Assembly (NCBI RefSeq): GCF_003402975.1
Contig: NZ_QURB01000007.1
Location: 1-64,000, forward strand
Direction of reading: 5' to 3'
Origin: Brumimicrobium aurantiacum
GTDB lineage: Bacteria; Bacteroidota; Bacteroidia; Flavobacteriales_D; Crocinitomicaceae
Length of the DNA stretch: 64,000 bases
Part shown: positions 12,709 through 30,429 of the stretch, in pieces
Layout of the letters: each line of letters opens with the position of its first letter
Numbering within the stretch: position 1 is the first letter of the stretch
Notes under the pieces: model-generated
The model's database searches: none
Seen by the model: only the letters and a program-made list of their open reading frames with translations
What the model was told of the DNA's origin: nothing
Translations under genes and position numbers: made by a program

Positions 12709-15700
12709 ATGAGAAGATATACTATTTTTATATTCATTTGTACCATACTTTTCTCCATTCAGAAATCATTTGGACAAAGTTATATTATTACCAATGGAGT
12801 TGCTGATACTACTTGTACAGGTACATTTTATGATACTGGTGGACCAAGTGGTGATTATTCTAATAATGAAAATATAACCTATACCATTTGTCCTAATTCA
12901 AATAATACCTTAGTTGTAGATTTCGTTTACTTCAATTTAAGAAATAATGATTACCTAACGATTTATGATGGGGCTAGTGTATTGGATCCTTTAATTGGTA
13001 GTTATTCTCAAGCTCCAGGACCAGGAACAGTAATTGCTTCCTCAAGTAATACTTCTGGTTGTTTAACTTTTGTATTTACTTCATCACCTATTTTTACAGA
13101 TGGTGGGTGGATTGCTAATATTAGTTGTTTATTGCCTTGTCAAGATATAATTGGTAGTGCAACATTCTCACCTGCACCTGATGCAGACGGTGTGATTCGA
13201 ATTTGTCAAGGTGAAACTGTAGACATGTTTGGAACAGCAACTTACCCGCAGAATAATCAGAATTATCCTCAATCTAATGCCACTTCAGTGTTTGAATGGA
13301 ATACTGAGAATGGTCCAAATCAGTTCGGTCAAAACATTTCATCTACCTTTAATAATGAAGGTGCTTATGTAGTTCAATTAGATATACAGGATGTAAACAA
13401 TTGTTATAATTCGATACCAATTAGTCAAGAAATTCATGTTTCCACCACCCCCGATTTTAGCGGAACCTTGGCCTCACCTGATTCCATTTGTTTGGGTGAA
13501 CAATCTGTATTAACAGGGGATGCTACTCCCGTTACGTTCAATAAAACTTGTGTACAGCCATCCTTTCCTCCAGTAGCACTCCCTGATGGCTCAGGAGTAT
13601 CATATAATACTTCTGTTAATTTAGATTGTTTTAATGATAATCAGACCTTGACTAATATCAATAATCTGCAATCGATTTGTGTTAATATGGAACATTCCTA
13701 TATGGGAGATTTAACCATCGAAATCGAATGCCCGAATGGTCAATCTGTTACTTTACATAGTAACGGAGGTGGTTCAACTTATTTAGGTGTACCGGTAGAT
13801 AATGACAATTTACCTTTGGCACAAGGAATTGGTTACTTATATTGTTGGACACCATTTGCAACCAATGGTACATGGGGGGCTAATTCAGCTTCTAATTCAA
13901 CATTACCTGCAGGAGATTACGAGTCTTTGGGTCCGTTATCTAATTTGGTTGGATGTGATTTAAATGGAAACTGGACACTTACTGTTACTGACCATTTAGG
14001 ATCTGATAATGGATTTATTTTTGATTGGAGTCTAAACTTTAATCCCGCGATTATTCCTCCAGGAATTACTTTCACTCCGACAATTAATTCGGAAAATTGG
14101 TTAGCTAATCCAACAATTGTAAGTGGCACTAATCCAATTACTGTGGAACCAACAACTTTAGGAAACGAATGTTATACTTATGAAGTAACCGATAACTTTA
14201 GTTGTACTTATGATACAACAATTTGTGTGAATGCAATAGCTGTTCCTAGTTTAGACCCGGTAGCTGATTTCGATACATGTGCAGCATATACATTGCCGGT
14301 AATCACTGGGACAAATTTATCTGGAAATGAATCTTTTTATACAGGACCATCAGGAACTGGAACTCAATATAATGCTGGAGATGTAGTAACTGTTCCGATA
14401 AGCTTATATATTTATGATAATACAGGAGCACCAGCAATGTGTGAAGATGAAACAAGTTTTAATATTGGTCTGTTCGCAAATAATACCACGCTAACTGCAC
14501 CTAACAATTTATCGGCCAATTGCTCAATTTTAGAGGTGCCGCCATATGCCTCACTTACAGATTTTGAAAACGATGGAGGGTCTGCAAGTTCATCGTCAAA
14601 TATGAATATTGTTCCCGGTACTTTCACATTAGTGAGTGAAATTTCAGATGGAATGTACTGTCCAGAAACAGTAACGAGAACTTATTCTGTTAAAGATGAT
14701 TGTGGAAATGTAGCAACAGCAACACAACTTGTGATTATTCATGATCAAATAAATCCAACAGGAACTGCACCTGCAGATGTTACAGTACAATGTATTGGTG
14801 ATGTTCCGTCAGTAGATATTACAGCTATTACAGATGAAGCAGATAACTGTACTGTGAATCCAGTAGTTGCACATGTTAGTGATGTGTCGGATGGAAACAC
14901 TTGTCCTGAAGTTATCACGAGAACTTATAGCATTACCGATACTTGTGGTAATTCAATAAATGTTGTTCAAACAATAACCATCAATGATGACATCAATCCA
15001 ACAGGGACAGCTCCAGCTGATGTTACAGTGCAATGTATTGGTGATGTTCCAACGGTGGATGTAAATGCAATTACTGATGAAGCAGATAATTGTACTGTTA
15101 ATCCTACTGTGACCCATGTGAGTGATGTATCGGATGGAAAGTCTTGTCCTGAAATCATTACAAGAACATATAACATTTCCGATGACTGTGGAAACAATAT
15201 TAATGTTGTACAAACCATTACCATTAGTGATGATACCAATCCAACAGGAACTGCTCCAGCTGATGTAACAGTGCAATGTATAGGTGATGTCCCAGCGGTG
15301 GATGTAACTGCAATAACAGATGAAGTCGATAACTGTACAGTGAATCCAATAGTGACGCATGTTAGTGATGTTTCTGATGGGAATACTTGTCCAGAGATCA
15401 TCACAAGGACATATAATATTGCAGATGATTGTGGAAACAATATCGATGTTATTCAAACCATTACGATTAATGATGATACCAATCCAACAGGAACTGCTCC
15501 AGCTGATGTTACTGTGCAATGTATAGGTGATGTTCCAGCAGTTGATGTGACGTTAATTACTGATGAAGCTGATAACTGTACAACTACGCCAACAGTTTCT
15601 CATGTAAGTGATGTTTCTGATGGGAATACATGTCCGGAAATCATTACAAGAACCTATCGAATTCAAGATGATTGTGGGAACTTTACAGATTTAAATCAAA

Positions 15701-18700
15701 CCATTACAATTAACGATGATACGAATCCAACAGGAACCGCTCCTGCAGACCTAACATTTCAATGTGTTACAGATATTCCTGCACCAGATGTTAGCCTAAT
15801 TACAGATGAAGCAGATAATTGTACAGTAAATCCAACTGTAACTCATGTTAGTGATGTTTCTGATGGGAACACTTGTCCAGAGATCATCACGAGAACTTAT
15901 AATATTGCAGATGACTGTGGAAATAGTATTAATGTGACACAGAATTTTATAATCTATGATGACATCAATCCAACAGGAACTGCACCTGCAGATGTTACAG
16001 TACAATGTATTGGTGATGTTCCGGCAGTAGATATTACAGCGATTACAGATGAAGCAGATAATTGTACTGTGAATCCAGTAGTTGCACATGTTAGTGATGT
16101 GTCGGATGGAAACACTTGTCCTGAAGTTATCACGAGAACTTATAGCATTACCGATACTTGTGGTAATTCAATAAATGTTGTTCAAACGATAACCATCAAT
16201 GATGACATCAATCCAACAGGAAGCGCTCCAGCTGATGTTACAGTGCAATGTATTGGTGATGTTCCAACGGTGGATGTAAATGCAATTACTGATGAAGCAG
16301 ATAATTGTACTGTTAATCCAACTGTGACCCATGTGAGTGATGTATCAGATGGAAGTTCTTGTCCTGAAATCATTACAAGAACATATAACATTGCCGATGA
16401 CTGTGGAAACAATATTAATGTTGTACAAACCATTACCATTAGTGATGATACCAATCCAACAGGAACTGCTCCAGCTGATGTAACAGTGCAATGTATAGGA
16501 GATGTCCCAGCGGTGGATGTAACTGCAATAACAGATGAAGCCGATAACTGTACAGTGAATCCAATAGTGACGCATGTAAGTGATGTTTCTGATGGGAATA
16601 CTTGTCCAGAGATCATCACAAGGACATATAATATTGCAGATGATTGTGGAAACAATATCGATGTTATTCAAACCATTACGATTAATGATGATACTAATCC
16701 AACAGGAACTGCTCCAGCAGATGTTACTGTGCAATGTATAGGTGATGTTCCAGCAGTTGATGTGACATTAATTACTGATGAAGCTGATAATTGTACAACT
16801 ACGCCATCAGTTTCTCATGTAAGTGATGTTTCTGATGGAAATACATGTCCGGAAATCATTACAAGAACCTATCGAATTCAAGATGATTGTGGGAACTTTA
16901 CAGATTTAAATCAAATCATTACAATTAACGATGATACGAATCCAACAGCGAGTAATGTTTTTTCTACGGTAGATTGTATTGATAACTTACCACCAGTAAA
17001 TATTGCAGTGATCACTGATGAAGCAGATAATTGTACTACAAATCCAGTAGTAGCTTTTGTATCTGAAAGTTCAGATAACAACGTTTGTAACGGAGAGCAG
17101 ATTACGAGAGTTTACAGTGTGACTGACGATTGTGGAAATAGTATAAATGTAAATCATGTTATAACAATCGATGCTTACACTCCCAATTTTGTAGTGACTC
17201 CAAATAACACAACATCGTGTGGAGGAACTGATGGTTTAATTACAATTTCAGGATTAATTCCGAATAAGGATTATGAAATCAGCTATGATGGAGGAGCACC
17301 TTTTTTAGTGACCACAAATGGAGCAGGGGAGTATACAATCCTTGGTTTACCTTCTGATAGTTATACTAATTTTACAGTTACGGATGCGAGTTGTATTGGA
17401 TGTACAAATACAGAAAATGTTTCGGTTAATGTTAACGATCCTAGTTCTGCTGTAATTGATGCAGGGCCAGATCATGTATTGTGTGAAGGTTCAACTTTAG
17501 TCTTGAATACAGTAAATCCAGATAATGCAAATTTATCATGGGATAATGGAGCTGTTGAAGGAGGTGCAGGATTCGTTCCACCACCGGGTGTAACCTTTTA
17601 TACTGTGACTGCTGAATTGGTAAATTGTTTTTCATCAGATCAAATTAAAGTTACGGTTTCACCAGAAATTACATCGATTTCGTGTCCAGGTGATTTAACC
17701 GCCAATTGTGATATTTCTGAGCAGGCACCTTATGCCGATTTTAACGCATTTATTGCTGCAGGAGGTTCTGCATTGATTCCTTCTGGAGGTATAATTGATT
17801 CAACATCATTCCAATTGCTGAGTGAAGTTTCTGACGGAAATTCTTGTCCAGAAACAGTGACAAGAACTTATCAAATTTCGGACACTTGTGGAGTTGCTGT
17901 TACTTGTACTCAAGATATTGTAATTAACGATTTAATATTACCTACTGGAACAGCACCAAATGATACCACAGTGACATGTCCAGATGATGTTCCTGCAGTT
18001 GATGTTACATTAATTACAGACGAAGCAGATAATTGTACGGTAAGTCCCGTAGTCACTCATGTAAGTGATGTTTCCGATGGAAATACTTGCCCAGAAACGA
18101 TTACAAGAACTTATGCCATTACGGACGATTGTGGAAATACTTTAAATGTTACTCAATTGATTACAATAAATGACTTGGTGAATCCTACAGGGACGGCGCC
18201 AGCAGATTTAGCTTTTCAATGTATTACTGATATTCCGGCACCGGATGTGACAGAAATTACCGACGAGGCAGATAATTGTACCGTAAATCCAATTGTAACT
18301 CATGTAAGTGATGTTTCCGATGGTAACACTTGTCCAGAACTCGTTACAAGAACATATAATATTGCTGATGAATGTGGAAATTCAATCAATGTAACACAAG
18401 TGTTTACGATTAACGATACCATAGATCCTACTGGAGCAGCACCAGCAGATGTAAATGTTGAGTGTTTGGCAGATGTGCCAGCCATAGACGGAACAACTGT
18501 ACAAAATGTAAATGACAATTGTACAACAACTCCTACGGTAACACATGTAAGTGATGTCTCGGATGGAAACACATGTCCTGAAGTGATTACAAGAACCTAC
18601 AATATTGCAGATGATTGTGGAAACAATATTGATGTGGTTCAAACGATTACAGTAAACGATGTAACAAATCCAACAGCTAGTAATCCTGTGGATATAACAG

Positions 18701-20412
18701 TTCAATGTTTAAGTGATGTTCCACCTGTTAATACAACGGTGGTCACAGACGAAGCAGACAATTGTACAGTAAACCCAATAGTGGCATTTGTTTCTGAAAC
18801 TTCAGATGGAAATACCTGTAACGGAGAGGTAATTACTCGTGTTTATAGTGTTACAGATGATTGTGGAAATTCGATTAATGTTTCACATACGATAACAGTT
18901 GATTCCTACACACCACCTGCAGGATTTACGCTTTCAAGTACAGATCCAACAACATGTTCAGGGACAGAAGGTACAATAACATTAGCTGGTTTAACTCCTT
19001 CTACTAATTACCAATTGAGTTATGATGGAGGCGCTCCGTTTCCAATTACTTCTGATGCAGCGGGTGAATATACAATTATCGGTTTAACTGCAGGTTCTTA
19101 TATTGATTTTACAGTTTATGATGAAGATTGTATAACATGTTTCTCAACCGTAATCGCAACGATTAATTTATCAGATCCAAATGCGCCTGTCATTGATGCT
19201 GGTCCAGACCAAGAACATTGTGAAGGAACTGTGGTTACCTTAAATGCAATAAATCCTGAAGGTGCAAATATCTCATGGGATAATGGTGTAACTGATGGTG
19301 TTGGTTTTGTTCCACCAGTTGGTGTATCCAATTATACTGTTACTGCTGAACTTGCGAATTGTTACTCTTCAGATGTTGTTTCAGTATTAATTCATCCATT
19401 GCCTCCTGTAGATGCAGGATTAGATGTAGATGCATGTATTGGAGAACAAGTGACTTTAAACGGAAGTGGAGCAGTGAGCTACACTTGGGATAAAGGTGTG
19501 GTTGATGGTGTTCCATTTAGTCAGGGGATTGGAATTGAAACTTATACCGTAACAGGTACTTCGTCATTTGGTTGTGTAAATACAGATCAAGTTGATGTAA
19601 CAATTCACGATTTACCAGTTATTTCTTTTGAAGCGGATACATTGACAGGCTGTTATCCATTAGAAGTAGATTTCACAAATCTTTTACAAACTCCAAGTGA
19701 CCAATGTGTATTTACGATAAATGGAAATGACCTTATTGGATGTGATGTAACTTACTCTTTCGATATTGTAGGATGTCATGATGTAACTTTACAAGTAGAG
19801 TCTCAATATGGATGTGTAAATCAAGCTACATTAACGGATTATATTTGTATTGGAGAATATCCTGATGCAGACTTTACATTTAGTCCTGATAATCTTTCAA
19901 GTTTTGATAAAACAGTGGAATTTACAAATACTTCAACAGGTTCAGTAACATATGACTGGGATTTTGGAGATGGAGTAGGAAGAAGCAATTTAACAAATCC
20001 AGAATACACTTATGGAATCGAAGCTGAAGAAGTTGAAGCATACTCTGTAGAATTGATAGCTTACAGTGATTATGGATGTCCTGATACTATCTCTAAAGCA
20101 ATGCCATTTATTGCGGATTTAATCTATTACATACCTAATACATTTACACCAGATGGGAATACCAATAATGAAGTGTTTAAACCTGTTTTCTATTCAGGGT
20201 TTGATCCTCAAGATTTTAATATGAAAATATTTAACCGATGGGGAGAAGTCATTTTTGAATCTAATGACGCATCTATAGGTTGGGATGGAACTTATGGAGC
20301 TTCGAGTAATGAAACTGTTCAGCAAGGCACCTACATCTGGGAAATTGAATTTAAAAGGGAAAAAGAAAAGGAAAGAGTGGAACTTTCAGGACATGTGAAT
20401 TTAATTAAATAG
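12709..20412 (+). CDS. Giant secreted adhesin: CUB, P-domain, HYR-like repeats, T9SS type B domain
   Basis: 2567 aa. Signal peptide (IFIFICTILFSIQKSFGQS). Residues ~27-145 form a CUB domain (FVYFNLRNNDYLTIYDGA, GWIANISC). Residues ~320-445 resemble a proprotein-convertase P domain (GDLTIEIECPNG, GDYESLGPLSNLVGC, DWSLNF). Ten tandem ~81 aa HYR-like repeats follow, with four more at about 17940-18910. Each has four conserved cysteines and acidic loops (ITDEADNC, SDVSDGNTCPE), suggesting disulfide-stabilised, perhaps Ca2+-binding modules (inference). Ig-like modules, a PKD domain (YDWDFGDG) and a gliding-type C-terminal sorting domain (IPNTFTPDGN, FNRWGE, GWDGTY) complete it. Likely a cell-surface or released adhesin exported by T9SS. 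Starts 2 nt after the preceding small gene. Confidence 0.9.
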   Translation: MRRYTIFIFICTILFSIQKSFGQSYIITNGVADTTCTGTFYDTGGPSGDYSNNENITYTICPNSNNTLVVDFVYFNLRNNDYLTIYDGASVLDPLIGSYSQAPGPGTVIASSSNTSGCLTFVFTSSPIFTDGGWIANISCLLPCQDIIGSATFSPAPDADGVIRICQGETVDMFGTATYPQNNQNYPQSNATSVFEWNTENGPNQFGQNISSTFNNEGAYVVQLDIQDVNNCYNSIPISQEIHVSTTPDFSGTLASPDSICLGEQSVLTGDATPVTFNKTCVQPSFPPVALPDGSGVSYNTSVNLDCFNDNQTLTNINNLQSICVNMEHSYMGDLTIEIECPNGQSVTLHSNGGGSTYLGVPVDNDNLPLAQGIGYLYCWTPFATNGTWGANSASNSTLPAGDYESLGPLSNLVGCDLNGNWTLTVTDHLGSDNGFIFDWSLNFNPAIIPPGITFTPTINSENWLANPTIVSGTNPITVEPTTLGNECYTYEVTDNFSCTYDTTICVNAIAVPSLDPVADFDTCAAYTLPVITGTNLSGNESFYTGPSGTGTQYNAGDVVTVPISLYIYDNTGAPAMCEDETSFNIGLFANNTTLTAPNNLSANCSILEVPPYASLTDFENDGGSASSSSNMNIVPGTFTLVSEISDGMYCPETVTRTYSVKDDCGNVATATQLVIIHDQINPTGTAPADVTVQCIGDVPSVDITAITDEADNCTVNPVVAHVSDVSDGNTCPEVITRTYSITDTCGNSINVVQTITINDDINPTGTAPADVTVQCIGDVPTVDVNAITDEADNCTVNPTVTHVSDVSDGKSCPEIITRTYNISDDCGNNINVVQTITISDDTNPTGTAPADVTVQCIGDVPAVDVTAITDEVDNCTVNPIVTHVSDVSDGNTCPEIITRTYNIADDCGNNIDVIQTITINDDTNPTGTAPADVTVQCIGDVPAVDVTLITDEADNCTTTPTVSHVSDVSDGNTCPEIITRTYRIQDDCGNFTDLNQTITINDDTNPTGTAPADLTFQCVTDIPAPDVSLITDEADNCTVNPTVTHVSDVSDGNTCPEIITRTYNIADDCGNSINVTQNFIIYDDINPTGTAPADVTVQCIGDVPAVDITAITDEADNCTVNPVVAHVSDVSDGNTCPEVITRTYSITDTCGNSINVVQTITINDDINPTGSAPADVTVQCIGDVPTVDVNAITDEADNCTVNPTVTHVSDVSDGSSCPEIITRTYNIADDCGNNINVVQTITISDDTNPTGTAPADVTVQCIGDVPAVDVTAITDEADNCTVNPIVTHVSDVSDGNTCPEIITRTYNIADDCGNNIDVIQTITINDDTNPTGTAPADVTVQCIGDVPAVDVTLITDEADNCTTTPSVSHVSDVSDGNTCPEIITRTYRIQDDCGNFTDLNQIITINDDTNPTASNVFSTVDCIDNLPPVNIAVITDEADNCTTNPVVAFVSESSDNNVCNGEQITRVYSVTDDCGNSINVNHVITIDAYTPNFVVTPNNTTSCGGTDGLITISGLIPNKDYEISYDGGAPFLVTTNGAGEYTILGLPSDSYTNFTVTDASCIGCTNTENVSVNVNDPSSAVIDAGPDHVLCEGSTLVLNTVNPDNANLSWDNGAVEGGAGFVPPPGVTFYTVTAELVNCFSSDQIKVTVSPEITSISCPGDLTANCDISEQAPYADFNAFIAAGGSALIPSGGIIDSTSFQLLSEVSDGNSCPETVTRTYQISDTCGVAVTCTQDIVINDLILPTGTAPNDTTVTCPDDVPAVDVTLITDEADNCTVSPVVTHVSDVSDGNTCPETITRTYAITDDCGNTLNVTQLITINDLVNPTGTAPADLAFQCITDIPAPDVTEITDEADNCTVNPIVTHVSDVSDGNTCPELVTRTYNIADECGNSINVTQVFTINDTIDPTGAAPADVNVECLADVPAIDGTTVQNVNDNCTTTPTVTHVSDVSDGNTCPEVITRTYNIADDCGNNIDVVQTITVNDVTNPTASNPVDITVQCLSDVPPVNTTVVTDEADNCTVNPIVAFVSETSDGNTCNGEVITRVYSVTDDCGNSINVSHTITVDSYTPPAGFTLSSTDPTTCSGTEGTITLAGLTPSTNYQLSYDGGAPFPITSDAAGEYTIIGLTAGSYIDFTVYDEDCITCFSTVIATINLSDPNAPVIDAGPDQEHCEGTVVTLNAINPEGANISWDNGVTDGVGFVPPVGVSNYTVTAELANCYSSDVVSVLIHPLPPVDAGLDVDACIGEQVTLNGSGAVSYTWDKGVVDGVPFSQGIGIETYTVTGTSSFGCVNTDQVDVTIHDLPVISFEADTLTGCYPLEVDFTNLLQTPSDQCVFTINGNDLIGCDVTYSFDIVGCHDVTLQVESQYGCVNQATLTDYICIGEYPDADFTFSPDNLSSFDKTVEFTNTSTGSVTYDWDFGDGVGRSNLTNPEYTYGIEAEEVEAYSVELIAYSDYGCPDTISKAMPFIADLIYYIPNTFTPDGNTNNEVFKPVFYSGFDPQDFNMKIFNRWGEVIFESNDASIGWDGTYGASSNETVQQGTYIWEIEFKREKEKERVELSGHVNLIK
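14752..17181 (+). repeat. Ten tandem 243 bp coding repeats with a 1215 bp higher-order period
   Basis: In-frame 243 bp (81 aa) units start at 14752 and run to 17181. Units 1-4 (14752-15723) and units 6-9 (15967-16938) are almost identical in DNA (about 96% where I compared unit 2 with unit 7). Neighbouring units within a block are much more diverged. The offset is exactly 1215 bp, or five units, pointing to a recent duplication of a five-unit block. Confidence 0.9.
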
Positions 20413-24075: not shown

Positions 24076-24131
24076 CTCAAAACTCTTGCTGATTCTTACT
24101 TGTATGCTCTTGCTCAAAACTCTTGCTGATT
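24076..24131. repeat. 19 bp direct repeat
   Basis: CTCAAAACTCTTGCTGATT occurs identically at 24076-24094 and 24113-24131 in a non-coding stretch between the phased repeats and the recombinase remnant. Confidence 0.7.
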
Positions 24132-24180
24132 TAGCGTCCTTTTCTGCCTACACCTCCAATCTGTCTCCTGTTTTTACCAC

Positions 24181-24236
24181 GCTGTAAAATCCCCAAAAAG
24201 GAGCATTCCGTTGGTCGCTCTTTTTGTGAATACAGC
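24181..24236. other. Two-tier hairpin of unknown role
   Basis: GCTGTA (24181) pairs with TACAGC (24231-24236). Inside, CAAAAAGGAGC pairs with GCTCTTTTTG with one bulged G, leaving a 12 nt apical loop. The nested stems look like a folded RNA or single-strand DNA site rather than a terminator. Function unknown. Confidence 0.4.
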
Positions 24237-24302
24237 TGAGTAAAACAGTACAACAGGATTTCCGTTTCCGTCAGGGCCGGGGGAAATATCATTGCCTCAG
24301 AA

Positions 24303-24523
24303 TACCATTTTCAGCAAGGTAAGCAGAAATTAAGAATAAAGGGAGTTCACGCATTTTAAGACATAGCTTTGCAACTTATCAATTAGTATTTGGAACAGAT
24401 TTAAGATTTATTCAATTTTTAAAGGGACACAGCAGTAGTAAAACGACAGAAATATATACGCAAGTAGCAATAAATCATCTTAAAAATATTAAAAGTCCGA
24501 TTGAATTATTAAATTTGGGTTAA
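24303..24523 (+). pseudogene. C-terminal remnant of a tyrosine recombinase (integrase)
   Basis: The last 57 codons (24350-24520, stop TAA 24521-24523) read [32 protein letters not shown], and [13 protein letters not shown]. This is the box II end of a Xer/IntI-type tyrosine recombinase, including the RH, the [10 protein letters not shown] loop and the catalytic-tyrosine segment (EIYTQV). Upstream, the matching residues ([11 protein letters not shown]) are in another frame, joined by a one-nucleotide shift near 24354. The rest of the gene is gone. It ends 41 nt before a GTTGGC core site and points towards the cassette genes. Two more degraded copies lie at about 25845-26010 and 28220-28385. 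Confidence 0.85.
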
Positions 24524-24540
24524 AAGATACATGGTGAATA

Positions 24541-24569
24541 AAAGCAATTGCGTTTAGCTACCTGTTGGC
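24541..24569 (+). other. att-like half site ahead of cassette 1
   Basis: GTTGGC core at 24564-24569, preceded by AAGCAATTGCGTTTAGCTACC. It occupies the same place, between the recombinase 3' end and a cassette gene, as the sites ending at 26054 and 28428. No convincing left arm lies nearby, so it may be attI-like or a half site (inference). Confidence 0.45.
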
Positions 24570-24583
24570 TGTAATTTGAGAAA

Positions 24584-25432
24584 TTGGATAAAAAATTAAA
24601 CATATTAACACAAAATGTAGCAAATACTGCATTACAGGTTACGCCAATAATTAGTATTCCAAATCCACCATCTGCAATTCCGATGGGTTGCGGAATTTTC
24701 TTGAAAATAAACGAAGATAGATATTTGATAAGTGCAGGACACTTATTGAACTTGAAGGACTGGCCGAATTTAATGGTTCCTGGAGCTGACAAAAAAATGG
24801 TTTGGTTAAACGGAACTGTAATCACTTCTTACAAAGATTCTGAAACTGACAATCCAATCGATTTTGGTCTGCTGAAATTCTCAACAAGACAAAACAAACA
24901 TTTCATTAATGGAAGTTTTGGATTTTGCAACCCTTCGAATATTATCGTTAATCATAAAGTTCAACAAGGTGGTTATTATGTGATTGCTGGCTATCCAATT
25001 TCAGGTGTGAAAAAGACAAGTGGTAAAGCGGAATTTAATCCTATTCCTGTTAAATTTTTGACTTATCCATTAAGTGAAAACAAATATGAAAAATATAGAT
25101 TTAATCCTGACCATTTTATTTTAGTAAAATATCAAAGAAAAGTTGCGCCTTTTGGTTCTAAAAAGAAACAAATAACGAAAGAATTGAGAGGAATAAGTGG
25201 TAGCGGACTTTGGTATGTGCCTGATTGGAATGACAGAAAAAAAGGAGTTCCAAAATTTTACCTAGTTGGAATTATGGTAGAGAATTACAAAGACAAAGGA
25301 TTTGTTGCTGCATTGAGAATTGATTTTGCGACCGAAGTAATTAAACAGTTTTTTATCTATTCACCATTTGAACACACTAAATTTGACTTTGTAGATAAAG
25401 TAAAGAATTTATATGTCTCGGAAATAAAATAA
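24584..25432 (+). CDS. Trypsin-like serine protease domain protein, cassette-borne
   Basis: 282 aa from a TTG at 24584. The frame only opens at 24575 after a stop, so this is the one start that keeps the N-terminus. The chymotrypsin-fold triad is visible: H53 in YLISAGHLL, D93 in NPIDFGLLKF, and S205 in LRGISGSGLW (GxSG with the oxyanion glycine). There is no signal peptide or membrane helix, so a cytoplasmic protease is implied. The start lies 20 nt after a GTTGGC core, as for a gene cassette. Target unknown; orphan proteases of this kind occur in accessory and defence contexts, but nothing here proves that. Confidence 0.65.
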   Translation: MDKKLNILTQNVANTALQVTPIISIPNPPSAIPMGCGIFLKINEDRYLISAGHLLNLKDWPNLMVPGADKKMVWLNGTVITSYKDSETDNPIDFGLLKFSTRQNKHFINGSFGFCNPSNIIVNHKVQQGGYYVIAGYPISGVKKTSGKAEFNPIPVKFLTYPLSENKYEKYRFNPDHFILVKYQRKVAPFGSKKKQITKELRGISGSGLWYVPDWNDRKKGVPKFYLVGIMVENYKDKGFVAALRIDFATEVIKQFFIYSPFEHTKFDFVDKVKNLYVSEIK

Positions 25433-25437
25433 CTACT

Positions 25438-26054
25438 GCCAACAATTAAGAATCAATGAGGTTAAGTAAAGTTCGACTTCATTTACTTGATCTTGAATGC
25501 TTACCCTAGGTGGCAGGTTCGAAGCCTGAAAAAACTATGGGGATTCAATAAGAAAACTTGTGATTGTATTTCTAAAAATTGGACTTTCTGTTTTTAGAAA
25601 TATGCTGTTTTGTCAAACAGGAACACTTTTTATCTTCTGATTTGCTGAGATAATGCGGTATTAAGTATTGATTTTGACAAAAGCTTTCATTTAAAGCATA
25701 GAAATAGCTGTCCGTATGCGTTATAGATTTTAAAGATCAGATTACTAGTTGTTTAAAGTTCTTTGTTTACTTTCAATTTTGATGGTGGACCTCTTAAACC
25801 CAGAATTAACTCCTTAATTTCAAAAGCCTTCCCTTTACATTTTATGACATAGCTTTGCGACACAATTTTTAGGATTTGGAACAGTTTTAAGATCTATTCA
25901 ATTTTTATAGGGACTCAGCAGTAGTAAGAGGATAGAAGTAAATAGGCGAGTAATAACTAATCAGTTGAAAAATATCAAAAGTCCGATTGAATTATTAAAT
26001 TTGGAGTAAAAGATACAGTATGGCTAAACGTAATACGATTAGCCGATTGTTAGC
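25438..26054 (+). repeat. ~617 bp repeated unit, copy A, with recombinase 3' remnant
   Basis: Begins with GCCAAC (25438) just after the protease stop and ends with GTTAGC (26049-26054). It contains a decayed recombinase C-terminus (about 25845-26010) with several in-frame stops. The right end folds as GGCTA, CGT, AAT loop, ACG, TAGCC (26022-26044). The unit is collinear with copy B (27817-28428) along its whole length. A T-arm-like word (GGTTCGAAGCC, about 25518) is present, but no tRNA. No intact gene is seen in it. Confidence 0.8.
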
Positions 26055-26074
26055 AGCAAACAATAAAACCAATA

Positions 26075-27187
26075 ATGGGAAGAAAGAAAATTGAATTCGT
26101 AGAAGCTAAAAAGAAATTTACTTCTGTAAAATACTTCCCCTTTGGAAACGTACCTGGAGAATCATATGTATTAACCTCTGACCCATGGAATTATCTCAAA
26201 GCATTTCTGAAAAATGAACATGACAGCATTAAAAAGAAAACTGAAAAGCTAGGTCCAAAAAAAGATAAACTAAGTAAAGCACTATATTTTACTGAATTAG
26301 CTGAAAGTTTTCAAAGAAGCGCTGAAAATGTACAAATGCCAACCAAGGCAACCTTAACATATTATTCAGTTTTGAATATTGTAAAGGCTTTTTTACTAGT
26401 TCGAGGACATGATTTAGAAACTAATCAGGAATATCATGGCTTAAGTTTAAATCCAAACGATACGATGGATTTAACAATTTCATCCAACGCAAAAAATGGA
26501 GGTATTAATATTTTCCATGAGTTCGCTAAAGAACTAGGTTATACAGTCAAACCGGGCACTAAAATATCTTTAGAAGAAATGATATCAAATCTTCCTGAGA
26601 TTCATGAACTAGCATATAATCTTAACTTAACAAAAACTAGTAAACGAAAATTTCTACCCATAGATATTGAATTTTTATCAAATAATAGAAGGTGGAATAA
26701 GCTTACATATAGAATATGTTTTGAGAAAAAACACAAACATGATTATCGTATAGAAAAATTTAAAAAAGGTATTCTCTCAAAAATTTTAGAAGAAAGCGAA
26801 GATTCTAAAGAAAGAGTTTGCTATCTATCCAAGCAGGTAAGAAATTTAACTCACACATCAGAAAGCAGTTGGAAATCAAATTATAATGAATTGTGCAAAG
26901 AAATAACGGGGTGTAATATTAGAATTATGTTGACAAGAGTAGGCTACAAATATTACTTAGACTTACAACCAGATAACTATTCGCCTTTAATTTATTATTT
27001 CAGTCTTATGTTTTACATCGGCTCAGTTGCTCGTTATCGACCGACATTGAACGAAGAAATTTTAGAAGGACAATACAAATCCTTAATATCAGAGGTGCTG
27101 ACAAGTTCACCGAAGCAATTCCTGTACTTAATTGCTGGATTTATGACAAATAAAATATGTGCTGTTCCAATGGCAAATTTGAATTAA
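26075..27187 (+). CDS. YaaC-like family protein, cassette-borne
   Basis: 370 aa, no signal peptide. The N-terminal part (DPWNYLKAFL, FTELAESFQRSAENVQMPTKATLTYYSVLNIVKAFLL) matches the layout of Bacillus YaaC-like proteins, whose function is undetermined. The C-terminal half also has the family-like YYFSLMFYIGSVARYRP segment followed by a short hydrophobic stretch. Starts 26 nt after a GTTAGC core and is followed 10 nt after its stop by the attC-like site, so it has the exact form of a mobile gene cassette. The base composition is AT-rich like its neighbours. Family call moderate, function unknown. Confidence 0.55.
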   Translation: MGRKKIEFVEAKKKFTSVKYFPFGNVPGESYVLTSDPWNYLKAFLKNEHDSIKKKTEKLGPKKDKLSKALYFTELAESFQRSAENVQMPTKATLTYYSVLNIVKAFLLVRGHDLETNQEYHGLSLNPNDTMDLTISSNAKNGGINIFHEFAKELGYTVKPGTKISLEEMISNLPEIHELAYNLNLTKTSKRKFLPIDIEFLSNNRRWNKLTYRICFEKKHKHDYRIEKFKKGILSKILEESEDSKERVCYLSKQVRNLTHTSESSWKSNYNELCKEITGCNIRIMLTRVGYKYYLDLQPDNYSPLIYYFSLMFYIGSVARYRPTLNEEILEGQYKSLISEVLTSSPKQFLYLIAGFMTNKICAVPMANLN

Positions 27188-27196
27188 AAGTCAGCT

Positions 27197-27325
27197 GCTA
27201 ACAATGGGTATACGTAATGCGGGCTGAAGTGCTAAAAGGAAATTATTAACATAAAACAAAATCAATGGAAAACGGAAAGATAAGTGCCTTAAAATCCCGC
27301 ACTACGCATACCCGAGACCGTTAGC
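27197..27325 (+). other. attC-like recombination site (129 nt)
   Basis: GCTAAC (27197-27202) and GTTAGC (27320-27325) are perfect outer arms. Inside, the 18 nt arm at 27206-27223 (GGGTATACGTAATGCGGG) pairs with 27296-27313 at 16 of 18 positions. The spacers differ in length (3 nt left, 6 nt right), giving the asymmetric hairpin typical of integron attC sites. Length fits the known 57-141 nt range. The core GTTAGCG departs from the canonical GTTRRRY at its sixth base. Confidence 0.7.
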
Positions 27326-27348
27326 GGTAACTATAACTCAACGTTGAA

Positions 27349-27804
27349 ATGACTATTAGTGGAACATATCTGGATAGGTTTATATCAATTATTTTACCGA
27401 TAGTTTTACTAGTTTCTGTAATTCTAATTATAACAACAAGAGAGATTTATACACTATTAGTAGGCATAATAATAGCTTTATTAATTTGGTTATTAGATAC
27501 TATAATCCTGTATAAAAAATATAATAAACCTGTACAAGTAAAAATTGAAAAGCAATTATTGGTTAACAACGAAGTAATTGATTCAAATGACATACTTAGT
27601 ATTACTCCTATAACTGACAATAGAATCAGGTGGGATTTTAAGTTAGTCACAATAACTCTTTCAGATAATAGAATTATTCACTTCATTGAAAAGCCACAAT
27701 TTTTTATACATGACATAATGGATAAACCTTCAAAATCGATTCAATTAATAATTGATAACCTTCCAGAATTAAAGGAAAAGATACAGGAACGAAAATATGT
27801 TTAA
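27349..27804 (+). CDS. Small membrane protein, cassette-borne, function unknown
   Basis: 151 aa. Two strongly hydrophobic helices lie in the first ~65 residues (FISIILPIVLLVSVILIITT and LLVGIIIALLIWLLDTIIL), followed by a soluble ~85 residue tail (VKIEKQLLVNNEVIDSNDI, LVTITLSDNRIIHFIEKP). The layout is that of a two-helix membrane anchor with a PH-like beta-rich cytoplasmic domain (inference from strand pattern). Starts 24 nt after the attC-like core GTTAGC and is followed 12 nt after its stop by repeat unit B. Not recognised as a named family. Confidence 0.6.
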   Translation: MTISGTYLDRFISIILPIVLLVSVILIITTREIYTLLVGIIIALLIWLLDTIILYKKYNKPVQVKIEKQLLVNNEVIDSNDILSITPITDNRIRWDFKLVTITLSDNRIIHFIEKPQFFIHDIMDKPSKSIQLIIDNLPELKEKIQERKYV

Positions 27805-27816
27805 AACAACAATACC

Positions 27817-28428
27817 GCATAACAATTAAGCATCAATGAAGTCAAGTAAGGCTTGAGTTCATTGTGCTTGGTGTTGAACTCTGCCTTTGGTGGCGGGTTC
27901 GAAGTCTAGAAAAACTATGGGGATTCAATAAGAAAACTTGTGATTGTATTTCTATAAATTGGACTTTCTATTTTTAGAAATATGCTGTTTTGTCAAACAG
28001 GAACACTTTTTATCTTCTGATTTGCTGAGATAATGCGGTATTAAGTATTGATTTTGACAAAAGAATTCATTTAAAGCATGGAAATAGCTGTCCGTATGAG
28101 TTACAGATTTTAAAGAGCAGACTACAAGTTGTTTAAAATTCATTGTTAGCTTTCAATTTTGATAGTGGACCTCTTAACCCCAGAATTAACTCCTTAATTT
28201 CAAAATCCATCCCTTTACATTTTAAGACATAGCTTTGTAACTTATCATTTAGAATTTGGAACAGATTTAAGATCTATTCAATTTTTAATCGGCCTCAAAG
28301 TAGAAGGATAGAAGTAAATAGGCGAGTAATAACAAATCAGTTGAAAAATATAAAAAGTCAAATTGAATTATTAAATTTGGAGTAACCACACAGGTTGGAT
28401 ATGCGCAATGTTATAGCCAATTGTTGGC
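27817..28428 (+). repeat. ~612 bp repeated unit, copy B, with recombinase 3' remnant
   Basis: Collinear with copy A from GCATAAC (27817) to GTTGGC (28423-28428). Shared landmarks include AACAATTAAG, AAAACTATGGGGATTC, TGCTGTTTTGTCAAACAGG and the recombinase tail ending in AAATTTGGAGTAA. The recombinase part (about 28220-28385) is more decayed than in the first remnant. The outer ends again read as left and right halves of an att-like site. Confidence 0.8.
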
Positions 28429-28455
28429 AACCATTTACTCACTCAAACTCTGAAA

Positions 28456-28743
28456 ATGAAACGAAGAAAAAAATCTAAACAAGTTCTTGTGAAAAGAATA
28501 TTTTTTGAAAAAGGAACTTATGACTATCTCTATCGTGATAAAGAAACTGCTGAAAAAATTATAAAATCTACTGAAAACAGAACCGAAAGCCATAAATTTG
28601 AAAAAGCTGAATGGTATGTTTCTATTGAGTATAAAATTAAAAAAATCTTTAAAAGTAAACATTTTGAGAAAGTAATTTATATAGTGTTATCAATTACATT
28701 AGGTTGGTTTTTAAAATATTACTTTGATAAGTGGGTAAGTTAA
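28456..28743 (+). CDS. Small basic protein with C-terminal membrane helix, cassette-borne
   Basis: 95 aa, very Lys/Arg-rich at the start (MKRRKKSKQVLVKR). Residues ~73-91 form one hydrophobic helix (VIYIVLSITLGWFLKYYF) near the C-terminus, so it is likely a tail-anchored inner-membrane protein. It begins 28 nt after the GTTGGC core that closes repeat unit B, like the other cassette genes. No homologous family recognised. The region after it (28744-28945) holds a GCTAAC word and a GTTGCCAAC word, but no well-folded attC. Confidence 0.5.
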   Translation: MKRRKKSKQVLVKRIFFEKGTYDYLYRDKETAEKIIKSTENRTESHKFEKAEWYVSIEYKIKKIFKSKHFEKVIYIVLSITLGWFLKYYFDKWVS

Positions 28744-28945
28744 ATTTGCTAAATAAATGCCAAAATAAACAAGAGCTAACCTCATTATTGTTTTTAATGG
28801 TTTTTTATAAAGGAAGCCATTTTCATATTTGTTAGAACCTAAAAATAAAAGCACCTTAAATGAAGTCTATTTGCTTTGTAAGACTAATATTTGAGTAAAA
28901 ATGGGGTTTGTGCGCAGACTTCCTGTTGCCAACAATACGGGAAAA

Positions 28946-28997: not shown

Positions 28998-29252
28998 ATG
29001 CAAATCACAACTGTTTCTGAGTTTAGAAAGGACATTAAAACATATTTGGACAGAGTTATTAAAAACTTTGAAACCTTAATAATTAATCGCGGAAAAGATT
29101 CTGGAATTGTTGTTATGTCCTTAGAAGAATATAATTCTCTAATGGCTACCAGTCACGAATTATCTTCCCGAAAAAATGAATTACGTTTAGACTCTGCTAT
29201 TGACAAACTAAAAAATGGAAGATCATTTTCAAGAGACTTAATCGAAGACTAA
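28998..29252 (+). CDS. yefM: YefM-type antitoxin (Phd/YefM family)
   Basis: 84 aa. The N-terminal Phd/YefM DNA-binding fold is clear (ITTVSEFRKDIKTYLDRV, GIVVMSLEEYNSL). The C-terminal tail (AIDKLKNGRSFSRDLIED) is the disordered toxin-wrapping segment. It represses its own promoter and neutralises the ribosome-dependent toxin encoded 1 nt downstream. It is the only gene of the array with an evident promoter of its own, as is usual for toxin-antitoxin cassettes. Confidence 0.9.
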   Translation: MQITTVSEFRKDIKTYLDRVIKNFETLIINRGKDSGIVVMSLEEYNSLMATSHELSSRKNELRLDSAIDKLKNGRSFSRDLIED

Positions 29253-29253
29253 T

Positions 29254-29511
29254 ATGAAATATACATTTGTTGACGAATCTTGGGAAGATTATTTATATTG
29301 GCAAAAAACAGATAAGAAAAAACTTAAAAAAATAAACGAACTTTTAAAGGATATATCAAGAAATCCATTTGACGGGATCGGAAAACCAGAACCTTTAAAA
29401 CATAAATACGCCGGATTTTGGTCAAGAAGAATTGACAGTGAACATAGATTGATTTATCAATATAAAGACGGAGAAATTTTAATTGCAAAATGCCGATTTC
29501 ATTATGACTAG
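29254..29511 (+). CDS. yoeB: YoeB-type mRNA endoribonuclease toxin (Txe/YoeB family)
   Basis: 85 aa, RelE-fold ribosome-associated endonuclease that cuts mRNA in the A site. The catalytic residues of E. coli YoeB are all at the same positions: E46 in GKPEPL, R65 in EHRLIY, and H83 with Y84 in the C-terminal CRFHYD. The conserved WSRRID core is intact, so the toxin should be active. The ATG follows the antitoxin stop by 1 nt, giving strict coupling. An att-like site (29564-29611) follows. Confidence 0.93.
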   Translation: MKYTFVDESWEDYLYWQKTDKKKLKKINELLKDISRNPFDGIGKPEPLKHKYAGFWSRRIDSEHRLIYQYKDGEILIAKCRFHYD

Positions 29512-29563
29512 AAAAGTACAGCAGGAAATAACTAAGTCTTCGGCGTGCCGAGTGTCTCCGTTT

Positions 29564-29611
29564 GCCAACTGATTACGCCCTATGGTTGTGAAATCGCTGT
29601 GCTAAGTTGGC
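29564..29611 (+). other. Short att-like inverted repeat after the toxin gene
   Basis: GCCAAC (29564-29569) and GTTGGC (29606-29611) are perfect inverted arms 36 nt apart. The inner pairing is weak. Same outer words as the other cassette sites, so it may mark the right end of the toxin-antitoxin cassette (inference). 29612-29759 shows nothing else. Confidence 0.45.
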
Positions 29612-29759
29612 CAATATTTAGACAAGCTAAATTGTGTCCGTCGGTCCCCATGTTTTAGCCTGTCATGAATTTATTCTGCGGAAACGATTACATTAATTAA
29701 GGACTTATTGTTAAGGCTGAATCCTTCGCTCAAGCATCCTTCACCGAAGCAGATAAACA

Positions 29760-30291
29760 CCTCCGTGTCCCTCCGTGAAAACACTCCTTTTTCCTCCGTG
29801 TTAAAACACCTCACCACAGGAGAACTCTTCTTAGCGTTCTCAATTTGCCGTAGGTAAATAACCTCTGCGTTTCTATGTGTAAAACCTCAGTGTACCTTTG
29901 CGGTTTCTTTTTCTACACCATCCAGCACTTCTCATGTGTCTCACTTTTCTTTCTCTTCAAATTACCTCAACCACAACAAACCTCCGTGTACCTTCGTGAA
30001 AACACTCCTTTTTCCTCCGTGTTAAAACACCTCACCACAGGTGAACTCTTCTTTGCGTTCTCAATTTGCCGTAGGCAAATAACCTCTGCGTTTCTTTGTG
30101 TAAAACCTCAGTGTACCTTTGCGGTTTCTTTTTCTACACCATCCAGCACTTCTCATGTGTCTCACTTTTCTTTCTCTTCAAATTACCTCAACCACAACAA
30201 ACCTCCGTATACCTTCGTGAAAACACTCCTTTTTCCTCCGTGTTAAAACACCTCACCACAGGAGAACTCTTCTTTGCGTTCTCAATTTGCC
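29760..30291. repeat. 221 bp tandem repeat, 2.4 copies, with 10 bp-phased heptamers
   Basis: Copies begin at 29760, 29981 and 30202; the third stops at about 30291. The copies are nearly identical. Each contains pairs of YTYYGYG heptamers exactly 10 bp apart (29761/29771; 29863/29873; 29886/29896), with pairs separated by 13 bp. The frame on the plus strand happens to stay open for up to 123 codons but lacks protein character. After the repeat, 30292-30360 holds further CCTTTG(C/T)-type words. Confidence 0.85.
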
Positions 30292-30375
30292 AAAGTTAAA
30301 TATAGCCTTTGAGCCTTTAGCGAAAACCTTTGCATGCCTTTGTGGGTAACCTTTCTACCTCCTTAAACTTGAAAT

Positions 30376-30403
30376 GAAAAAAGGCCGTCCTTCCAAACGA
30401 CCT
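30376..30403 (-). terminator. Terminator of the GldL-like gene
   Basis: AGGCCGT (30382-30388) pairs with ACGACCT (30397-30403), including one G-U pair. On the minus strand it is followed by a run of six T. Confidence 0.65.
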
Positions 30404-30429
30404 CAATTCAAATAATTAAAGTTTATTTT

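Follow-up and report, generated by a model that had tools for sequence, protein, structure and literature searches.

Two units of ~610 bp that lie between gene cassettes in a 64,000-nucleotide stretch of Brumimicrobium aurantiacum DNA (contig NZ_QURB01000007.1, positions 1 to 64,000; hereafter, the window) are probably the seams between tandem, integrase-less cassette platforms, each seam consisting of the END module of one array, a filler, a recombinase tail and the START module of the next. The units are composites, START and END modules occur independently at the heads and tails of other arrays, the scaffold is conserved despite cassette turnover, and the genome holds no intact parental gene. 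In the mechanism that we propose, the window would carry a chain of short co-oriented cassette arrays of an integron-like system. Every array would open with a START, in which the final bases of the recombinase gene, with a TAnnTTTG box, precede an attI-like hairpin that ends in GTTRGC, continue with one or two cassettes and close with an END. The platforms, each equipped with a recombinase gene, would most likely have been stacked head to tail through att-site recombination or tandem duplication, after which most of the recombinase gene would have been lost and its last bases retained. The sites presumably served as substrates of an Xer-like recombinase, and the arrays are probably immobile today unless a recombinase acts in trans. 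Since an intact stack of END, full recombinase gene (int) and START was not found among the genomes compared, stacking before gene loss is a step that we only infer.

Units 1 (25438-26054) and 2 (27817-28428) are collinear from end to end with 86-87% identity (86.5% over a 635-bp alignment, 25425-26055 with 27802-28429), and their local alignment score is 445, compared with a maximum of 22 among 200 shuffles. A sequence-only reading of this DNA had described a recombinase 3' end duplicated with ~400 bp of upstream DNA. The duplication was borne out, as both units carry a copy of the tail, which also matches the array-head fragment 24352-24531 at 83%; the tail spans only ~170 bp, however, and the "upstream DNA" is a separate array-end module plus filler. 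Both ends of each unit fall on cassette junctions with the motifs previously given (left, GCCAACAATT / GCATAACAATT; right, GATTGTTAGC / AATTGTTGGC), and the copies have, as noted then, diverged and lost their reading frames, unit 1 through stops and unit 2 through a frameshift. Unit 1 starts 5 nt past the stop codon of gene A and unit 2 starts 12 nt past that of gene C, and their right ends coincide with the onset of the next gene's leader. They run from AAC to GTT and sit where an ordinary attC, such as that at 27196-27325, would stand behind a gene.

When the unit is set against its own genome and ~100 relatives, it divides into END (bases 1 to ~146, ~146 bp), filler (~147-400, ~255 bp), a dead recombinase 3' end (~401-570, ~170 bp) and an attI-like START in the last ~64 bases, which overlaps the end of the remnant. 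The coordinates are compiled in Table 1.

Table 1 Features of the array region in the window.
Feature	Position	Strand	Remarks
Repeated 5' flank	24101..24352	.	often precedes int, its remnants or START sites within the genus
Recombinase 3'-end remnant, head of array 1	24352..24519	+	in-frame stop codon upstream
START module 1	24505..24569	+	TTAAATTTG box and attI-like site ending GTTGGC; nhmmer 49.9 bits
Cassette A	24584..25432	+	282-aa ORF, no Pfam match
Unit 1 END module	25438..25583	+	array-end, degenerate attC-like; begins GCCAACAATTAAG; 125.5 bits
Unit 1 filler	25584..25837	+	no match to int
Unit 1 recombinase 3'-end pseudogene	25838..26007	+	from about HILRHS to ...IELLNL
Unit 1 START module	25991..26054	+	TTAAATTTG box, hairpin TGGCTAAACGTAATACGATTAGCC, ends GTTAGC; 61.0 bits
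Cassette B, YaaC-like protein, 370 aa	26075..27187	+	PF14175, 1.7e-37
Ordinary attC-like site GCTAAC...GTTAGC	27196..27325	.	18-bp paired arms, asymmetric spacer, z -3.15
Cassette C	27349..27804	+	151-aa ORF
Unit 2 END module	27817..27963	+	149.8 bits
Unit 2 filler	27964..28217	+	–
Unit 2 recombinase 3'-end pseudogene	28218..28383	+	frameshifted
Unit 2 START module, ends GTTGGC	28367..28428	+	48.3 bits
Cassette D, 95-aa ORF	28456..28743	+	weak DUF7829
Second START-like type (TAATATTTGAGTAAAAATGGGGTTTGTGCGCAGACTTCCTGTTGCC)	28802..28934	+	copies in G002, G003, G005
Cassette E, YefM antitoxin + YoeB toxin pair	28998..29511	+	–
Second END-like type (END2), closes array 3	29527..29632	+	copies at C12, C16, C21 and in other species

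START and END occur apart elsewhere, START heading co-oriented gene arrays and END tailing them, and the full unit was found only where the two meet. START reads TTAAATTTG...ATACAGGTTGGCTAAACGTAATACGATTAGCCAATTGTTRGC and is placed directly behind the stop codon of the intact recombinase gene of Brumimicrobium oceani (G002), and it also heads gene rows without a recombinase. TAnnTTTG is kept in every START module aligned, and resembles the Bacteroidetes -7 promoter box. Recombinase tails are kept before attI in five species with differing upstream DNA, and the retained 3' end would persist for the cassette promoter and the attI site that it is predicted to supply.

The first bases of END are GCYAACAATTAAGCATCAATGA, and ten aligned copies lose coherence past about base 146. 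Its 17 matches comprise 12 that are preceded by a START in the same orientation (at most 8 kb away, except for one at ~10 kb), one at the edge of a contig and four for which no START was detected; the opposite order occurs in none of the 17. Elsewhere, the END module closes arrays without any recombinase tail. Its consensus pairs ACAATT with GATTGT, and the fold is fair in unit 2 (z -4.3) and absent in unit 1 (z -0.06), so that a degenerate attC is only suggested; a search of Rfam returned chance matches only. The complete unit occurs twice in its own genome and, across the genomes searched, in two species only, always inside arrays, with one copy ending at a contig end. This distribution, together with END and START at array ends, speaks against a generic interspersed repeat, even with the four END matches that lack a detected START.

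Part of the filler (unit bases 143-255) itself recurs at array edges. In array C18 (L009:6275-6815), the hipA of a hipB-hipA-like pair is truncated by a filler copy (unit bases 137-255), indicating that the filler piece can join other DNA. As sources of the ~400 bp, the recombinase gene and its divergently oriented neighbour, which encodes a zinc-ribbon-like protein, were both rejected, as the filler is similar to neither.

The sister species G003 carries an array next to the same AIR-synthase gene as the window locus, with flanks of 87.5% (left) and 90.9% (right) identity. The two loci share START with the tail, one unit and END, and have no cassette gene in common, so that the units are an inherited scaffold around which the cassettes were swapped. 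The G003 unit shares 90.8% identity with unit 2 and 87.8% with unit 1, and the presence of the same composite at the same locus agrees with the earlier view that the event is old. The END of unit 1 is nearer to the terminal END of G003 (82%) than to the END of the G003 unit, indicating that modules were exchanged or converted and that the history is not one of simple tandem duplication. The repeat at 24101-24352 has copies at C16 (94%), in G003 (85%), at C21 and in G001, G004 and G005. It adjoins the AIR-synthase gene in B. oceani and G004 and lies upstream of int remnants in several species; the platform may naturally be flanked by it on the 5' side.

Seams of other types were found elsewhere. 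The C12 array of the same genome lies between gyrB and a hydrolase gene, which are adjacent without an array in G001, G003 and G005, and contains two joints of the form END2, filler and START (L011, 7723-8249 and 9692-10235). The empty gyrB sites gave no base-exact insertion borders, because the intergenic DNA is too diverged. The third array of the window likewise ends in END2 and has a START of a different type; together with the C12 joints, this indicates that seams are general in this genus. In G005, an int fragment starts exactly at the end of a START3 module, CCC|GTTACG (L202:2331-2453 / 2454-2624), and a second copy runs on into normal int coding sequence. This single junction looks like the remnant that would be expected from a recombinase-mediated crossover inside the int gene.

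The full-length parental gene, which the sequence-only reading had proposed to look for, is absent from the window's genome: only 3' remnants, the C21 pseudogene and chromosomal-type recombinases were found there. The closest intact recombinase is a 382-aa protein of B. oceani (NZ_QFRJ01000013.1), with Phage_int_SAM_4 and Phage_integrase domains and an N-terminal extension of ~100 aa. Among the NCBIfam models, it passes the cut-off of NF040815 only ('site-specific tyrosine recombinase/integron integrase'), and the IntI model TIGR02249 matches it in two stretches, below its cut-off. Compared with IntI4, ~42 catalytic-domain residues are missing, and the spacing from GLR to HxLRH is 91-93 aa in 42 relatives versus ~134 in IntI4; the IntI-defining insertion is therefore absent from the parental recombinase and these relatives.

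At 33 surveyed loci where the recombinase gene is intact, almost all of them in Flavobacteriales, 121 of the 127 ORFs downstream of int are co-oriented, versus 67 of 114 upstream. A strict attC scan missed most sites, and with local pairing and relaxed flanks we counted 25 attC-like sites downstream (137 kb) versus two upstream (149 kb), and none in shuffled DNA. Aquimarina mytili has an array that is a textbook row of gene, attC, gene and attC. A link between the window and this recombinase family comes from the attC of the window, which is homologous to attC-like sites inside arrays of this kind in other genera; the match in Winogradskyella, for example, is 73% over 132 bp.

Several further observations were made around the recombinase genes. 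In two species, a cysteine-rich, zinc-ribbon-like protein of ~123 aa is encoded divergently from the intact gene (L065:1047-1418 and L066:1034-1408), with repeated TATACG motifs between the two genes, and is possibly a regulator or a recombination helper. Many draft contigs stop within ~150 bp of the recombinase stop codon (L093-L095, L097, L099, L100, L105), as would be expected of a genome with repeated array-head sites. A single genome of the genus (G007) encodes about twelve closely similar proteins of 300 aa that are related to the recombinase, which suggests a multi-copy mobile element.

Alternatively, the unit might be an oversized substitute for attC that travels with the preceding gene, A or C; the two would then excise and insert together, as a single cassette, through the GTT at the attI end, as delta-attI-type cassettes do in class 1 and 2 integrons. 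The same unit stands behind two different genes and exactly fills the attC slot of both, and such cassettes do exist in class 1/2 integrons and can be excised; one of them contains 244 nt of attI2 (PMC12901181). However, G003 keeps the unit at the same locus with all cassettes different, as a scaffold would, and a gene moved together with the unit as a block was not found in the genomes compared; we therefore consider this explanation unlikely. The copying of a single pre-existing degenerate junction by a local duplication of ~2.4 kb, with the recombination sites uninvolved, would account for two directly oriented units that lie 2.4 kb apart and for a similarity that continues for 13-15 nt beyond the left end of the unit. 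It appears improbable, as the copies have unrelated genes between and beside them, the unit ends coincide with site motifs and joints of another type are separately present in the C12 array.

The sequence-only reading had instead taken the unit itself to behave like a cassette carrying the recombinase tail, on the grounds of two copies with junction motifs at both ends. A cassette consists of GTT, gene and attC, whereas the unit has the AAC...GTT polarity of an attC rather than GTT...AAC, holds no open frame and is assembled from parts that are found separately; its polarity and composite build speak against a cassette, leaving the idea of a mobile cassette with hardly any probability. The reading of the units as seams is itself opposed by the filler, for which it does not account, by the END matches without START and by the exchange or conversion of modules.

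The system resembles integrons in having, in the relatives, a recombinase gene, as well as an attI-like site, co-oriented and mostly single-gene cassettes, palindromic AAC...GTT sites, cassette turnover at a fixed locus and a toxin-antitoxin pair as a cassette. The integrase gene expected in cis is not intact in the window's genome and is intact in B. oceani, where START behind int corresponds to attI by both position and sequence; a similar hairpin site lies behind int in G009 and many Flavobacteriales. Palindromic attC sites are found at 27196-27325 and at the surveyed int loci, and the comparison of G003 with the window shows cassette exchange on a conserved platform. In contrast to integrons, the intact relatives are Xer-like and have no IntI-specific insertion, the recombinase gene is upstream of the array, co-oriented and reading towards it, and the arrays close with a recurrent END module. 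The system appears to work like an integron, yet it should not be filed as one, because the IntI insertion is absent. In the classification of tyrosine recombinases, this insertion is deemed essential for integron function (PMC8138268), and IntegronFinder 2.0 names a single complete integron in Bacteroidetes proper, that of Salinibacter ruber (PMC9024848).

Among known phenomena, the delta-attI-type cassette of class 1/2 integrons comes closest, with a copy of the array-head site in the attC slot (PMC12901181), and the unit is a variant of such duplicated-attI cassettes, as both units end in START sites, that is, attI-derived sites in the attC slot. Unlike those cassettes, the unit combines END, filler, a recombinase remnant and attI over ~610 bp, acts as a scaffold in two species and belongs to a non-IntI system. 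CALINs are similar in that they, too, combine cassettes with att sites and lack an intact integrase gene, and a Polaribacter phage CALIN has an attC site that is active with IntI1 (PMC9892861). Here, however, START modules and integrase remnants remain and are multiplied, and END marks each array. A CALIN is defined by at least two attC sites and no integrase gene; the window shows one clear attC plus END-type sites. The pdif modules of Acinetobacter (PMC7399989) also place single genes or small groups between Xer-type recombinase sites, whereas the arrays described here are directional, lie behind a dedicated recombinase gene (in the relatives) and have long attC-like sites, with no sign of an involvement of chromosomal XerC/D.

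Flavobacteriales may hold a widespread, unrecognised cassette-capture system, a proposal that we put forward with slightly less than even confidence. It would consist of an Xer/XerA-like recombinase with an N-terminal domain of ~100 aa and without the IntI insertion, a near-palindromic hairpin attI, folded attC-like sites and a defined END, with tandem stacking in which the integrase is lost and its 3' end is kept as promoter and attI. In the full-text literature that we searched, with most subscription journals and preprints outside its coverage, no non-IntI cassette system is described for this order. The ability of integrons to recombine folded attC sites is attributed to an insertion unique to IntI. 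If the proposal is true, arrays that occur throughout an order of marine bacteria without this insertion allow a direct test of its role in integron behaviour, and surveys keyed to IntI miss a large pool of cassettes. The seams would show how platforms age, with the integrase lost, the promoter and insertion sites kept and the cassettes swapped between fixed pieces of scaffold.

Other repeats were observed in the window. A 221-bp sequence at 29759-30421 is directly repeated in three copies, of which the later two are 97% and 63% identical to the first; these repeats are also present at the same locus in G003, just outside the array. A 2567-aa ORF at 12709-20412 contains about eleven in-frame repeats of 243 bp.
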